From assembly GCA_902579985.1 (NCBI GenBank), contig CACHIV010000001.1, positions 124,001-188,000 on the forward strand: 64,000 bases of DNA. Reading direction: 5' to 3'. Both the position numbers and the translations under genes were made by a program. Shown here in pieces: positions 43,204-46,122 of the stretch. This DNA is from an uncultured Pelagibacteraceae bacterium (GTDB lineage Bacteria; Pseudomonadota; Alphaproteobacteria; Pelagibacterales; Pelagibacteraceae). The notes below the pieces were generated by a model. It ran no database searches. It saw only the letters and a list, made by a program, of their open reading frames with translations, and was not told where the DNA came from. The stretch's first letter is position 1. Each line of letters opens with the position of its first letter.

Positions 43204-43239
43204 TAATGGTGTTGAATCTATTGTAATTCCTTTTATATT

Positions 43240-43505
43240 AATAAAGTTGGTTTTCCAACTATGACGATAAACGAATTTCGTAATAACCATTGCGGACGTG
43301 GGGGCAGTACCCACCACCTCCACCATTTTCAACTTATGGGGGTGAACTAGATTCGACGAGTGACTAAAAGTTGTTCTTTCGTTCGGAATTGTTCCTCCGA
43401 AAAGGGCTATTTTATAAATGCTAACGAAAGTTACGCAATTGCTGCTTAATTAATTTATTAATTAAGTAAACGGGGTTCGGGGCACCTGGCAACAGAACGC
43501 CCCTT
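43240..43505 (+). ncRNA. ssrA: Transfer-messenger RNA, circularly permuted two-piece type
   Basis: The 3' acceptor half precedes the 5' half. T-stem GTGGG/CCCAC with a 7-base loop (43298-43314), acceptor strand CACCTCC plus encoded ACCA (43315-43325), a 12-base intervening segment, then GGGGGTG at 43338-43344 pairing as seven acceptor pairs. The third pair is G-U, the alanine identity element. GATTCGACG follows at 43350. The tag frame starts GCT at 43420 and reads A-N-E-S-Y-A-I-A-A-stop (TAA 43447). The stop lies in a 9-bp hairpin (43445-43466). The gene ends in the hairpin at 43479-43503. The 5' boundary is approximate; a hairpin AGTTGG/CCAACT is at 43245-43260. It rescues stalled ribosomes. 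Confidence 0.93.
43475..43505 (+). repeat. Repeat A, copy 1: 3' end of the tmRNA gene
   Basis: The 31 bases run from GTTCGGGGCACC to GAACGCCCCTT and fold as GGGGC/GCCCC with an inner CTG-GCAA-CAG stem closed by a GNRA tetraloop. This copy is the original end of the tmRNA. Exact copies lie at 44350 and 45059, all in the same orientation. Confidence 0.9.
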
Positions 43506-43588
43506 CCTATTTTAAAATAAGTTTTGATTTTCAACGTAAATTTAAAAATACAACTTTGTTGGACGACTATGAGTCAGAATTGTAATCT

Positions 43589-43936
43589 TTAGCAACCTGC
43601 TTCTGACATACCTTCCAAAACTCCACCCCAAAAACCAGTTGGCTGTCTATTTGGATCGCTATTAGCTTTTTTAATTCTTTCACACCTCAAAACTTTTTTC
43701 AAAGCTTCCTCTTCTTGTCTAGCCATATCTAGTTGCATCATGCAACCAGAGAAAGATTCAGAGTCATCCTTAAAACCATAATTTCTACATTTAATTTTGT
43801 CTCCTTCAATTATTTGTCTTTGCATTTCTAGCTCTCTTTCCTTTCTATCTGCTTCATTTTGAAGGGCCCATTCATTCATTTGAGCACAACTTAATAAAAA
43901 TAAGTTTAAAAAGATTAGACAAAAAATTTTTTTCAT
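43589..43936 (-). CDS. Small secreted lipoprotein
   Basis: 115 residues with a lipoprotein signal peptide (residues 1-17, lipobox LLSC). The mature part is polar with a helical ERELEMQRQIIEGDKIK stretch and CRNYGFKDDSESFSGCMMQ, a Cys-pair motif seen in many small uncharacterised bacterial lipoproteins. Its ATG overlaps the TAA of the next gene upstream by one base (TAATG). It lies inside the segment bounded by repeat A copies 1 and 2. Function unknown. Confidence 0.75.
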   Translation of the reverse strand: MKKIFCLIFLNLFLLSCAQMNEWALQNEADRKERELEMQRQIIEGDKIKCRNYGFKDDSESFSGCMMQLDMARQEEEALKKVLRCERIKKANSDPNRQPTGFWGGVLEGMSEAGC

Positions 43937-44205
43937 TAATTAAAAATACTAATAAGGTTATATTTGTCTAATCCTACTAAAATTAAAAAGATTACTGCCG
44001 CAAAAATTATACTCCAAAATAAATTCATATAAAATTGAGAATGAACCATACTTGTCATTCTCTCATATCTATCATGGATAATATCAGCACTAAATTTTTT
44101 TTTATTTTGCAAGTCGTAAGTTTCATTTTGCCATAATAATTGACTTAAAAATAAACAAGCACAAATTAGCAAAATTATAATTACGAATAATAAAGCATTT
44201 GTCAT
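43936..44205 (-). CDS. Small membrane protein of unknown function
   Basis: 89 residues with two hydrophobic segments (about 4-24 and 61-83) joined by a charged loop (NKKKFSADIIHDRYERMTS). No family recognised. It is coupled to the lipoprotein gene by a TAATG overlap, so the two form one unit within the first segment after the tmRNA. The 144 bp upstream contain a hairpin CGACCA/TGGTCG at 44253-44270. Confidence 0.65.
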   Translation of the reverse strand: MTNALLFVIIILLICACLFLSQLLWQNETYDLQNKKKFSADIIHDRYERMTSMVHSQFYMNLFWSIIFAAVIFLILVGLDKYNLISIFN

Positions 44206-44349
44206 ATCATTCCTTTTGTATATCCAAGGTTATCAAATCATGTGCTCTGTGACGACCATATTTTTGGTCGGCATTTAGTCGGAATTATTCTATAAATTAC
44301 GTAATTTAATTATTGCTAATTGCTCAAATATAAGGATTATTGAAACAAA

Positions 44350-44380
44350 GTTCGGGGCACCTGGCAACAGAACGCCCCTT
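44350..44380 (+). repeat. Repeat A, copy 2
   Basis: Identical over 31 bases to the tmRNA end; the identity with copy 3 extends five bases further left (ACAAA). It lies between the promoter region of the small membrane protein and the cupredoxin gene. On the plus strand it is followed by five T residues. Confidence 0.92.
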
Positions 44381-44422: not shown

Positions 44423-44444
44423 TTTGGCACACTAGTGGCACAAT
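44423..44444 (+). repeat. Repeat B, copy 1 (TGGCACA direct repeat)
   Basis: 22 bases containing TTGGCACA, CTAG, TGGCACAA: two direct TGGCACA half-sites spaced one helical turn apart. It touches the stop codon of the cupredoxin gene. Copy 2, one base different, is 560 bp away on the other side of that gene. Confidence 0.85.
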
Positions 44445-44941
44445 TATAAATTATTTATTTTTGCAATCATGCCCGCCTCGTAGTGACCGGGTACGTTACA
44501 CGCTGCCTCAAGATCAGCATTAGTATAAAATTTCCAAATTAATTCAGCACTCTGGTTCGGCTCTAACAACACACTATTAGAGTGAGAATGACTCATAGAA
44601 TGATCTTTTTTTGATAATTCTTTCATTTTTTTTTTATCAATTCTATCAACTAACAATATTTCATTTTCTACCATTTTCATCATTTCTGGTTGATGTTTCA
44701 GGTGCATAGCTTTAGTAGCAATATTAAATTCATGAACTAGTTCCCCATAATTATAAACAATAAACTTTATAGTTTGGTTTTTCTTTATTTCAAATTTATT
44801 TGGCTCATAATAATTGTCATACATTTTAACTAAGATAACTTTAGAAACTTCAGCTGGATCTCCTTTTTCACCTATCATATTCATCGTGCCACCAAAAGAG
44901 ATGCTTGGTATTAAAATTAATAATAATATAATTTTTTTCAT
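44444..44941 (-). CDS. Periplasmic cupredoxin-domain protein
   Basis: 165 residues with a signal peptide (residues 1-18). The cupredoxin copper site is visible: His in LVHEFNIATK, Cys and His in ACNVPGHYEAGM, and the terminal Met. Between them is a Met/His-rich insertion (MHLKHQPEMMKM; DHSMSHSHS), which could bind further copper. Likely a periplasmic copper carrier or copper-tolerance protein. It is the only gene between repeat A copies 2 and 3 and is closely flanked by the two B repeats. Confidence 0.83.
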   Translation of the reverse strand: MKKIILLLILIPSISFGGTMNMIGEKGDPAEVSKVILVKMYDNYYEPNKFEIKKNQTIKFIVYNYGELVHEFNIATKAMHLKHQPEMMKMVENEILLVDRIDKKKMKELSKKDHSMSHSHSNSVLLEPNQSAELIWKFYTNADLEAACNVPGHYEAGMIAKINNL

Positions 44942-44982
44942 GTTCTATAATAAAATTCTATATAAAATTTAATATTGTGAAT

Positions 44983-45004
44983 TTTGGCACAGTAGTGGCA
45001 CAAT
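44983..45004 (+). repeat. Repeat B, copy 2 (TGGCACA direct repeat)
   Basis: TTGGCACA, GTAG, TGGCACAA within a 22-base unit that matches copy 1 at 21 positions and has the same orientation. It lies 41 bp upstream of the cupredoxin start and 54 bp before repeat A copy 3. Confidence 0.85.
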
Positions 45005-45058
45005 ATTTATTAAATTATAGATTTTTCAATTCAAATTATTCTCGAATAATGCTACAAA

Positions 45059-45089
45059 GTTCGGGGCACCTGGCAACAGAACGCCCCTT
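45059..45089 (+). repeat. Repeat A, copy 3
   Basis: Exact 31-base copy of the tmRNA end, 6 bp past the stop of the minus-strand gene at 45096. As RNA on either strand it can form the same hairpin. Confidence 0.92.
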
Positions 45090-45095
45090 AATAAC

Positions 45096-45473
45096 TTACT
45101 TACAAACTTTTTTATAAGTTAAATATCTTATCGTATTAGGTTCAGCAGTAACCCAAATATTTGGTGGATTATGATCACCTAAAAATTCACCCTCTCCCAT
45201 AAATTCTGAATAAAAATTAAATACGTGATCCTTCCCGCTTAAATTATTACAGTTTACTTCTGTATAAGTTAGAGAAGATTTCCAAAATATGTCTTCGTTT
45301 TGAATAAGATAATTTACCAAATGCCAAAAATGAATATTTGTTCCCTCTTTCTTTAATTTGGTCATATCTATATAATGTTCGCTATTTTGATCAGAATGAA
45401 TTTTATTCCACTCAGCAAAACCAATAGTGCTCCAAAACAAACTTAATATAATACATAGGTATATTTTTTTCAT
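45096..45473 (-). CDS. Small secreted protein, possible adhesin-E-like fold
   Basis: 125 residues from the ATG at 45473, giving a proper signal peptide MKKIYLCIILSLFWSTIGFA. A longer frame to 45587 adds 38 residues but destroys the signal peptide and covers tandem repeats. The mature part, with WNKIHSDQNSEHYIDMTKLK, VNYLIQ, a Cys pair (EVNCNN, KKVCK) and beta-rich pattern, resembles the small 'surface-adhesin protein E' type domain, but this is a loose resemblance. Only gene between repeat A copies 3 and 4. Confidence 0.6.
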   Translation of the reverse strand: MKKIYLCIILSLFWSTIGFAEWNKIHSDQNSEHYIDMTKLKKEGTNIHFWHLVNYLIQNEDIFWKSSLTYTEVNCNNLSGKDHVFNFYSEFMGEGEFLGDHNPPNIWVTAEPNTIRYLTYKKVCK

Positions 45474-45544
45474 AACATCATTTTTATCAAATCTACAATG
45501 AAGTATAAGATTTAAAAAGCAACTAAAAACAAAATAAGTCATTC

Positions 45545-45568
45545 TAGCAATGAAGTTAGCAATGAAGT
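45545..45568. repeat. Tandem 12-bp direct repeat
   Basis: TAGCAATGAAGT occurs twice without a gap, and CAATGAAGTAT appears again at 45496. The repeats lie in the upstream region of the small secreted protein gene, between its start and repeat A copy 4. Confidence 0.6.
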
Positions 45569-45613
45569 ATTTTGATAAAACGAGCAAATATGCTATTTTC
45601 TTATCTATTGCCA

Positions 45614-45631
45614 GGCAACAGAACGCCCCTT
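45614..45631 (+). repeat. Repeat A, copy 4 (truncated)
   Basis: GGCAACAGAACGCCCCTT, the right 18 bases of repeat A, identical to copies 1-3. The left 13 bases have been replaced (TTGCCA precedes), so the outer stem is lost. It lies 5 bp past the peroxiredoxin stop and marks the far edge of the repeat array. Confidence 0.75.
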
Positions 45632-45636
45632 ATTAA

Positions 45637-46122
45637 TTAAATAAGATCTAATATTCCTTCTGCGGAGGAAATACCACAACTTTTAGTTTCTTCTTCCTCT
45701 TGAATATTCAAAACTTTCATATTTTGAATGATCATTGCGTAACGACTTGATCTAATTCCCATCCCTTTAGAATTTCTATCAACTTCTGCACCAATTGATT
45801 TTGTAAATGATAAATATGGATCTGCTAACATAGATATGTTATTTTCAACATTATTGGCTTCACCCCAAGCATTCATCACATGAGGATCGTTCACAGATAT
45901 ACAAAATATTCTATCAATTCCCTTAGATTTTAATTTTTCAACATTTTTTACATACCCAGGTAAATGAAGTTTAGAACATGTATGGGTATAAGCTCCTGGT
46001 AATCCAAACAATAATATTTTACTGTTTCCTAAGGTTTCTTTGATGCTTTGCTCCTTTGGTTCACCATCTTTTAAAATATAGATTTGTACCTCTGGTATAG
46101 AATCGTTTACTTTTAATTTCAT
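45637..46122 (-). CDS. Peroxiredoxin (Prx5 family)
   Basis: 161 residues. The peroxidatic Cys is in FGLPGAYTHTCSKLHLPGY (about residues 39-57), the Prx5 signature, with the catalytic Arg in IRSSRYAMII. A further Cys is in TKSCGISSAEG, a possible resolving residue as in atypical 2-Cys enzymes. It reduces peroxides and alkyl hydroperoxides with thioredoxin or glutaredoxin. The start overlaps the stop of a 33-residue ORF upstream (ATGA). Confidence 0.9.
   Translation of the reverse strand: MKLKVNDSIPEVQIYILKDGEPKEQSIKETLGNSKILLFGLPGAYTHTCSKLHLPGYVKNVEKLKSKGIDRIFCISVNDPHVMNAWGEANNVENNISMLADPYLSFTKSIGAEVDRNSKGMGIRSSRYAMIIQNMKVLNIQEEEETKSCGISSAEGILDLI

Follow-up and report, generated by a model that had tools for sequence, protein, structure and literature searches.

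The locus examined here raises the question of why a single cupredoxin gene should be closely framed by two short direct repeats, within a 64,000-nt stretch of DNA (hereafter the window) from an uncultured member of the Pelagibacteraceae, in the SAR11 group. The original prediction, made by reading the letters of the window, held that two 22-bp units, identical at 21 of 22 positions and in the same orientation, bracket the cupredoxin gene, that they lie inside longer outer repeats (the A repeats) so that the segment is doubly framed, that one unit touches the stop codon of the gene, and that the units are arm sites of the kind bound by tyrosine recombinases. The first three claims held, and the fourth is supported and largely right, binding being inferred; what had not been foreseen is that the A repeats derive from ssrA, whose 3' end they reproduce, and that the element has no integrase of its own. 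The most probable explanation is an integrative cassette that has a complete attP but lacks an integrase, and that a tyrosine integrase encoded elsewhere mobilises in trans, although both binding and movement are inferred.

Each unit contains two TGGCACA half-sites, spaced 11 bp start to start. When the two-half-site pattern was searched in the whole window with up to two mismatches, two sites were returned, both exact, against 0.12 expected, and two such sites were reached in 2 of 100 shuffled windows. The whole genome assembly (1.16 Mb, 95.3% complete) added one match, with two mismatches, and the backward-read pattern, used as control, also matched once in the same assembly. The units bracket the cupredoxin ORF, the left one sharing one base with its stop codon and the right one lying 42-63 bp upstream of its start, and both are nested inside perfect copies of GTTCGGGGCACCTGGCAACAGAACGCCCC, a 29-bp sequence that occurs three times in the array (Table 1). 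These outer repeats reproduce the 3' end of ssrA, a gene that ARAGORN recognised as a permuted tmRNA gene with the tag ANESYAIAA. An ssrA gene followed by tandem core copies bears the signature of site-specific integration at a tmRNA gene, with the gene's 3' end as attachment site in the chromosome; each integrated element adds one more copy of the ssrA end, leaving the chromosome's ssrA intact.

Table 1. Features of the ssrA array and the cupredoxin cassette, in window positions.
Feature	Position	Strand	Remarks
ssrA, permuted alphaproteobacterial tmRNA gene	43208..43507	+	Rfam RF01849 217 bits, RF04321 129 bits
att core copy 1, genuine ssrA 3' end	43475..43503	+	Perfect GTTCGGGGCACCTGGCAACAGAACGCCCC copy
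First cassette	43504..44349		Two small ORFs, 43589-43936(-) and 43936-44205(-)
Second att core, attL of cupredoxin cassette	44350..44378	+	Perfect 29-bp repeat
Left unit TTTGGCACACTAGTGGCACAAT, arm site pair TGGCACA-CTAG-TGGCACA	44423..44444	+	Starts 75 bases after core start
Cupredoxin cargo, 165 aa	44444..44941	-	Pfam Cupredoxin_1, 28.2 bits (cut-off 27)
Right unit TTTGGCACAGTAGTGGCACAAT, arm site pair TGGCACA-GTAG-TGGCACA	44983..45004	+	Starts 74 bases before core start
Conserved right-end block TTTTCAATTCAAATTATTCNCGAATAATG	45023..45051	+	Occurs across several arm classes
Third att core, attR of cupredoxin cassette	45059..45087	+	Perfect 29-bp repeat
Fourth core, partial, decayed, CCAGGCAACAGAACGCCCC	45611..45629	+	Array end, beside peroxiredoxin-like gene

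The N-terminus of the cupredoxin, judged by eye, is signal-peptide-like. The first cassette of the array has its own, partly decayed arm class, with a best left-right match of 13/18, and neither of its two small ORFs was matched by comparison with Pfam and PHROG.

Two further observations concern the remainder of the array. The third interval (45088-45606) holds a gene resembling that of surface-adhesin protein E (Pfam Adhesin_E, 66 bits), and the partial core with the peroxiredoxin-like gene occupies 45607-46122 of the window. A homologue of the latter gene was seen in L148, L151, L157, L158, L160, L161 and L167, loci with ssrA-type cores where no tmRNA was found in the stretch; the peroxiredoxin-like gene is a possible second attachment site.

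Across 397 genomes of the order Pelagibacterales, the exact TGGCACA-N4-TGGCACA pattern occurred 17 times, in 12 genomes, while the backward-read pattern had no match in the same set. Eleven of these matches lie within arrays of ssrA-type cores, ten being 74-75 bases from a core start and the other, in G348, inside an element; a further five (in five genomes) sit beside tRNA-Thr genes, 66 bp from the gene end, and one is 74 bp from a tRNA-Gly gene. Enrichment of the motif at att sites or integrases, which the original prediction proposed as a check, was thus found, and its occurrence upstream of many unrelated genes, which would have refuted the prediction, was not seen among the 17 exact matches in the 397 genomes. 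The idea that the tRNA-Thr and tRNA-Gly matches are ssrA cassettes was rejected: their inner sequence, inspected by eye, is without the ssrA right-end backbone, and they are regarded as arm-like pairs belonging to other RNA genes. Separately, a signal-peptide-like start of the MKKLLGIVVLGLLLS type, followed by variable mature parts, was observed in cargo genes at tRNA-Thr (L088, L091, L087, L089) and in the core array of G028 (L040).

The position of the repeats relative to the cores was scanned in 40 array loci comprising 91 core copies, allowing up to one mismatch per heptamer; these loci were picked for the core, the right-end motif or the repeat, and do not constitute a random sample. Among 27 repeats in core orientation, 13 stood at exactly -74 and 10 at exactly +75 from a core start, the others being two in G028 (-84 and +86) and two without a core within 150 bp; one further copy, in G400, had the opposite orientation. 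Both ends were at the standard offsets (right 13, left 10 overall) in ten genomes, including that of the window (G000), which together carry eight different cargoes: the cupredoxin cassette is common to G000, G319 and G594, and seven of the eight cargoes consist of a single ORF of at least 70 aa. In G348, G617 and G516 the right arm is present and the left arm is absent at the preceding core. ARAGORN found a tmRNA gene in 18 of the 40 loci, and at six of the ten two-ended TGGCACA cassettes; 19 loci had cores but no tmRNA in the fetched stretch, and the core search found none in three (G208, G497 and G523). Not every array has been shown to be at ssrA, and ssrA-type cores are also used at places not shown to be ssrA.

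Other elements of the arrays have the same core, and many have the same right-end backbone, together with a different heptamer (TGGCGTC, CGGGATA, CGGAATA, CCGCACT or CGGCC-like). Left and right arms matched at 15 or more positions of the best 18-bp match in 26 of 54 core-to-core intervals, compared with 6.9% for end pairs taken across genomes; the 54 intervals include probable non-single elements (e.g. 121, 160 and 222 bp) as well as three two-ended copies of the cupredoxin cassette. The right-end block was detected, with up to three mismatches, in 36 of 399 genomes of the window's genus (no listed match for the backward control), and the right-end motif was found in 33 stretches of genome contigs, 32 from Pelagibacteraceae and one from Pelagibacterales. 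A perfect 16-bp palindrome, ATTATTCGCGAATAAT, was also observed in 20 of 39 listed right-end blocks, the window copy (45035-45050) being one base off; it might serve as the site of a directionality factor or a host factor.

Comparison between genomes bears on whether the cassette moves. The cupredoxin cassette of the window is 97.06% identical over 680 bp to that of G319, 96.96% over 658 bp to that of G594, and 91.3% over 609 bp to that of G516, whereas in the same comparisons the flanking genes thyX and mrp are 81-82% and 79-82% identical, with fumC at 79-80% and ssrA at 84-85% in G319 and G594. The cassette is second in the window array and first in G319 and G594; in G516 it lies in the last of four intervals, and both cores there are degenerate. 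The same flank can follow the last core despite different array length, as in G634 versus G504 (89.5% over 590 bp). This pattern is what transfer of a bounded unit would leave, and the near-identical cupredoxin cassettes of other SAR11 species suggest movement by a borrowed integrase; the movement itself is inferred. The search for an empty site, requiring more than 70 aligned bases starting no more than 60 bases from the last core, yielded no one-core locus matching the flank of a longer array, but arrays of two and three cores did match. A downstream tRNA-Leu(gag) gene is common to G012 and G004, with one core each, and G029, with two; G012 was rejected as a clean empty site, an apparent left-end remnant being present.

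Cargo ORFs are on the strand opposite to the cores in 81 of 88 cases. The contact between repeat and stop codon seen in the window is a common layout: eight intervals, of which seven are TGGCACA cassettes, have the cargo stop codon directly at the left arm, at offset 95. Samples of ten of the 88 proteins each were compared with Pfam and with PADLOC, five proteins being in both samples: HNH, LAGLIDADG and GIY-YIG domains, a UvrD-type helicase and HATPase were recognised, and NOV_C and MrcB_N proteins matched defence models, with three of ten lacking a match in Pfam and four of ten in PADLOC.

A cassette of this type would depend on an integrase encoded elsewhere, since none was identified by the integrase profile among the 88 cargo ORFs (≥70 aa) of the 54 intervals, the window's included. 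The window genome has one PF00589 gene, which is Xer-like and also present in relatives; a PF00589 gene of Xer-like look, beside the same small ORF, was found in five of ten integrase loci examined, that of the window genome included. At least one PF00589 match occurred in 216 of 300 genomes, and most of those inspected have the length of the Xer-like gene. An integrase located at ssrA was found in two genomes, G504 and G167, and both of these ssrA integrases of the genus are PF00589-type tyrosine integrases, serine recombinases not being covered by the search. The G504 element (L202) measures 6.2 kb core to core at ssrA. Its integrase has 332 aa; it also encodes a primase-like protein of 733 aa (PHROG DNA primase, 8e-25) and several small ORFs for which no clear match was obtained. 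No structural phage gene was found among seven ORFs compared with PHROGs, and the element is satellite-like. Its left arm is imperfect (5/7), and a matching right pair was not seen. The G167 integrase (330 aa) is 52% identical to that of G504 and is preceded by TGGCGTC-ATGG-TGGCGTC, a pair located 38 bases ahead of the integrase gene and 85 bases past the start of the core; the right end of this element is off the contig, and the exact arm pair also occurs at both ends of an element in G334 and at right ends in G318, G034 and G651. In a further locus, L217 (G165), an integrase gene fragment with a stop codon in the match was observed beside a homologue of the ssrA-flanking mrp-type gene, and is probably a decaying ssrA integrase element.

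Perfect 7-mer repeats are frequent upstream of integrases of this family in the order, two of which are at ssrA, within 150 bp before the match start: among 25 loci the period was 11 in 16 and 12 in 6, the corresponding rates for random windows from the same loci being 3.3% and 2.0%. These counts are not exclusive, since a locus may show both periods; the 25 also include close relatives, and four loci are from outside the window's genus. A TGGCACA-armed SAR11 integrase at ssrA was not found by PF00589 searches of 24 genomes and, in part, of 300 genomes, nor by protein searches of 28 and 397 genomes. Tyrosine recombinases with and without an arm-binding domain have been described (PMC8138268). 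The sole integrase modelled, that of G167, belongs to another arm class than TGGCACA; its model (mean pLDDT 87.6) starts with strand-strand-strand-helix at a pLDDT of about 88. Three strands and a helix are the layout expected of an arm-binding domain. The best matches of the fold search with this model were the Tn1549, XerA, integron and lambda integrases, and the best solved sequence match of the SAR11 integrase profile was 5c6k, the P2 integrase catalytic domain, leaving the N-terminal domain uncovered.

The motif was also sought in viral contigs, from which at least 119 motif loci were taken, the scan being incomplete and near-copies being kept. Among loci with both a TGGCACA pair and a family integrase, 37 of 39 have the repeat within 400 bp of the integrase, against 12.6 expected from position; for the reversed motif, 80 of 94 loci were analysed, of which seven had an integrase and three of these lay within 400 bp (2.5 expected). 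In many viral loci the repeat comes after the integrase gene, not before it. The presence of the TGGCACA pair near integrases in viral contigs therefore indicates an arm-type sequence that extends well beyond SAR11. The exact right-end motif had no match in viral contigs and no cupredoxin relative was confirmed there, thus no carrier has been seen. The right end of the cassette had no match in INPHARED and its left end gave short matches alone (22-35% coverage), the viral-source search with the G504 integrase returned no confirmed relative, and no core within two mismatches was found for the viral-contig integrase relatives examined by alignment (80 of 130). Eight viral contigs with the exact 25-bp core were rejected as proviruses, as they appear to be phages encoding their own permuted tmRNA. 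In these contigs (L073-L080), the tag is ADENLALAA in seven and was called as AKTINADENLALAA in one, and the tmRNA 3' end is the identical 25-bp ssrA core; the phage-encoded tmRNA gene could possibly be an attachment site itself.

The geometry of the repeats, the matching arms, the conserved ends, the transfer-like identity and the presence of integrase genes with like arms at the same site are shown. The mechanism proposed to account for them is inferred, as regards arm binding, integrase action in trans, excision and the passage of a circle between cells. The repeats would serve as arm sites, arranged in pairs, to which a tyrosine integrase binds through an N-terminal arm-binding domain, and the circular 709-bp cassette would present a full attP, consisting of an arm pair, 56 bp, the ssrA-derived core, 46 bp and the other arm pair. 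The cassette holds the cupredoxin cargo alone and sits at the 3' end of ssrA, leaving ssrA intact. The integrase would be supplied by a co-resident satellite or phage whose attP has the same heptamer, and would bind arms and core and either excise the cassette or integrate the circle into the ssrA 3' end, with host factors perhaps acting at the conserved right-end block.

Alternative explanations were weighed against this one. The repeats could be operator boxes of a transcription factor regulating the cupredoxin gene: OmpR/PhoB-type factors bind 7-bp direct repeats with an 11-bp period, to which the 7+4+7 layout is similar, the right copy lies upstream of the gene start, and minus-strand promoter-like matches are found near it, yet the whole region has 9 such matches versus 5.5 (sd 2.5) in shuffles. 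Against this reading, the genome contains two exact sites only, all 17 exact sites of the 397 genomes are in ssrA-type core arrays or beside tRNA genes, the site is at both cassette ends, one of them downstream of the gene, and the heptamer changes in concert at both ends between cassettes; a regulatory role of this kind is very unlikely and has been largely refuted. A sigma-54 promoter was likewise rejected. TGGCAC-N5-TGGCA does resemble a -24/-12 (sigma-54) promoter, but neither copy shares the strand of the cargo gene, and the same motif is met again at att sites (no rpoN search was made).

Passive duplication, in which cassettes are shuffled as ssrA fragments recombine by homology while the inner repeats have no role, gains some support from the perfect 29-bp tandem cores, which could recombine. 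It leaves unexplained, however, the exact arm spacing with different cargo, the paired switching of arm class, and the same repeat type upstream of integrases at other attachment sites, and is considered very improbable. A less remote alternative, though still an unlikely one, is a decayed cis-mobilisable element, namely a former satellite or island without integrase whose arms and cores are fossils, and which moves only when a neighbour excises the whole tandem. Possible cis-mobilisation has been proposed for integrase-less tandem ssrA islands in Dehalococcoides (PMC3146451), decay is part of the definition of CIMEs (PMC5704250), some cores and arms are degenerate, and the cognate integrase is missing. 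On the other hand, ten genomes have both arms at identical offsets with eight different cargoes, the cassette is 97% identical where flanking genes differ by ~20%, it is core-bounded and found at different array positions, and fossils would not be expected to keep left-right arm matching. Mobilisation in trans of an integrase-less cassette remains the preferred reading.

A bolder version of the trans-mobilisation reading can be formulated, which as a whole we hold to be rather more doubtful than probable: SAR11 cassettes would represent an integron-like economy run on phage-type integrases, based on small cassettes, often of a single gene, that have in common an end backbone and an ssrA core but differ in interchangeable arm 'codes'. 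The arm code would set which visiting integrase moves which cassette, species would exchange copper proteins, nucleases and defence-like genes in trans, and an integrase bound to the arm near the cargo start may also switch cargo expression. SAR11 bacteria are among the most abundant cells on Earth, and in their streamlined genomes few mobile elements have been recognised. A minimal cassette, in which all the att DNA is present and no enzyme is encoded, would help explain the gain and loss of single genes in such genomes. The arm heptamer would predict which integrase moves which cassette, making the question testable, and the arm classes offer a natural data set on sequence choice by the arm-binding domains of tyrosine integrases.

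Several known systems resemble the SAR11 cassettes in part. P2-like phages have two arm sites of two direct repeats each (PMC3931495), and in both cases the core is flanked by two arm sites of paired direct repeats; in SAR11, however, this layout is on an element without integrase, several heptamers go with one and the same core, and integration is targeted to a permuted ssrA, at its 3' end. Like CIMEs (PMC5704250), the cassette lacks integration and transfer genes and keeps attL and attR, with one ORF and intact cores and arms, but CIMEs are decayed and moved in cis, whereas the SAR11 cassettes look intact and recently moved, with conserved ends; the apparent recent transfer as a bounded single unit argues against CIME-type decay and cis movement. 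CALINs, which are integron cassette arrays without integrase, and MITEs similarly combine a cargo or element with a recombination site served by an enzyme in trans (PMC11389934), the SAR11 site differing in that it reads as a phage-type attP, with arms and an ssrA core, and not as attC or the ends of a transposon. Among proposed satellite families, tycheposons and VEIMEs (PMC11389934) are likewise marine satellite-like integrative elements. Both are associated with RNA genes, and tycheposons are larger and encode their own recombinase. No report of SAR11 ssrA cassettes was found in the open-access literature searched, most subscription papers being outside its scope. The ssrA islands of Dehalococcoides, 15 of which are without an integration module (PMC3146451), are also tandem and bounded by copies of the ssrA 3' end, some having no integration genes. 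Their enzyme is a serine recombinase, DsiB, encoded at attL where an integration module is present, and the relevant sections of that paper mention no arm repeats, whereas the SAR11 side has small, often one-gene cassettes with matched arm pairs, and its two ssrA integrases are tyrosine recombinases. Integrase-less ssrA islands as such are already known from Dehalococcoides.
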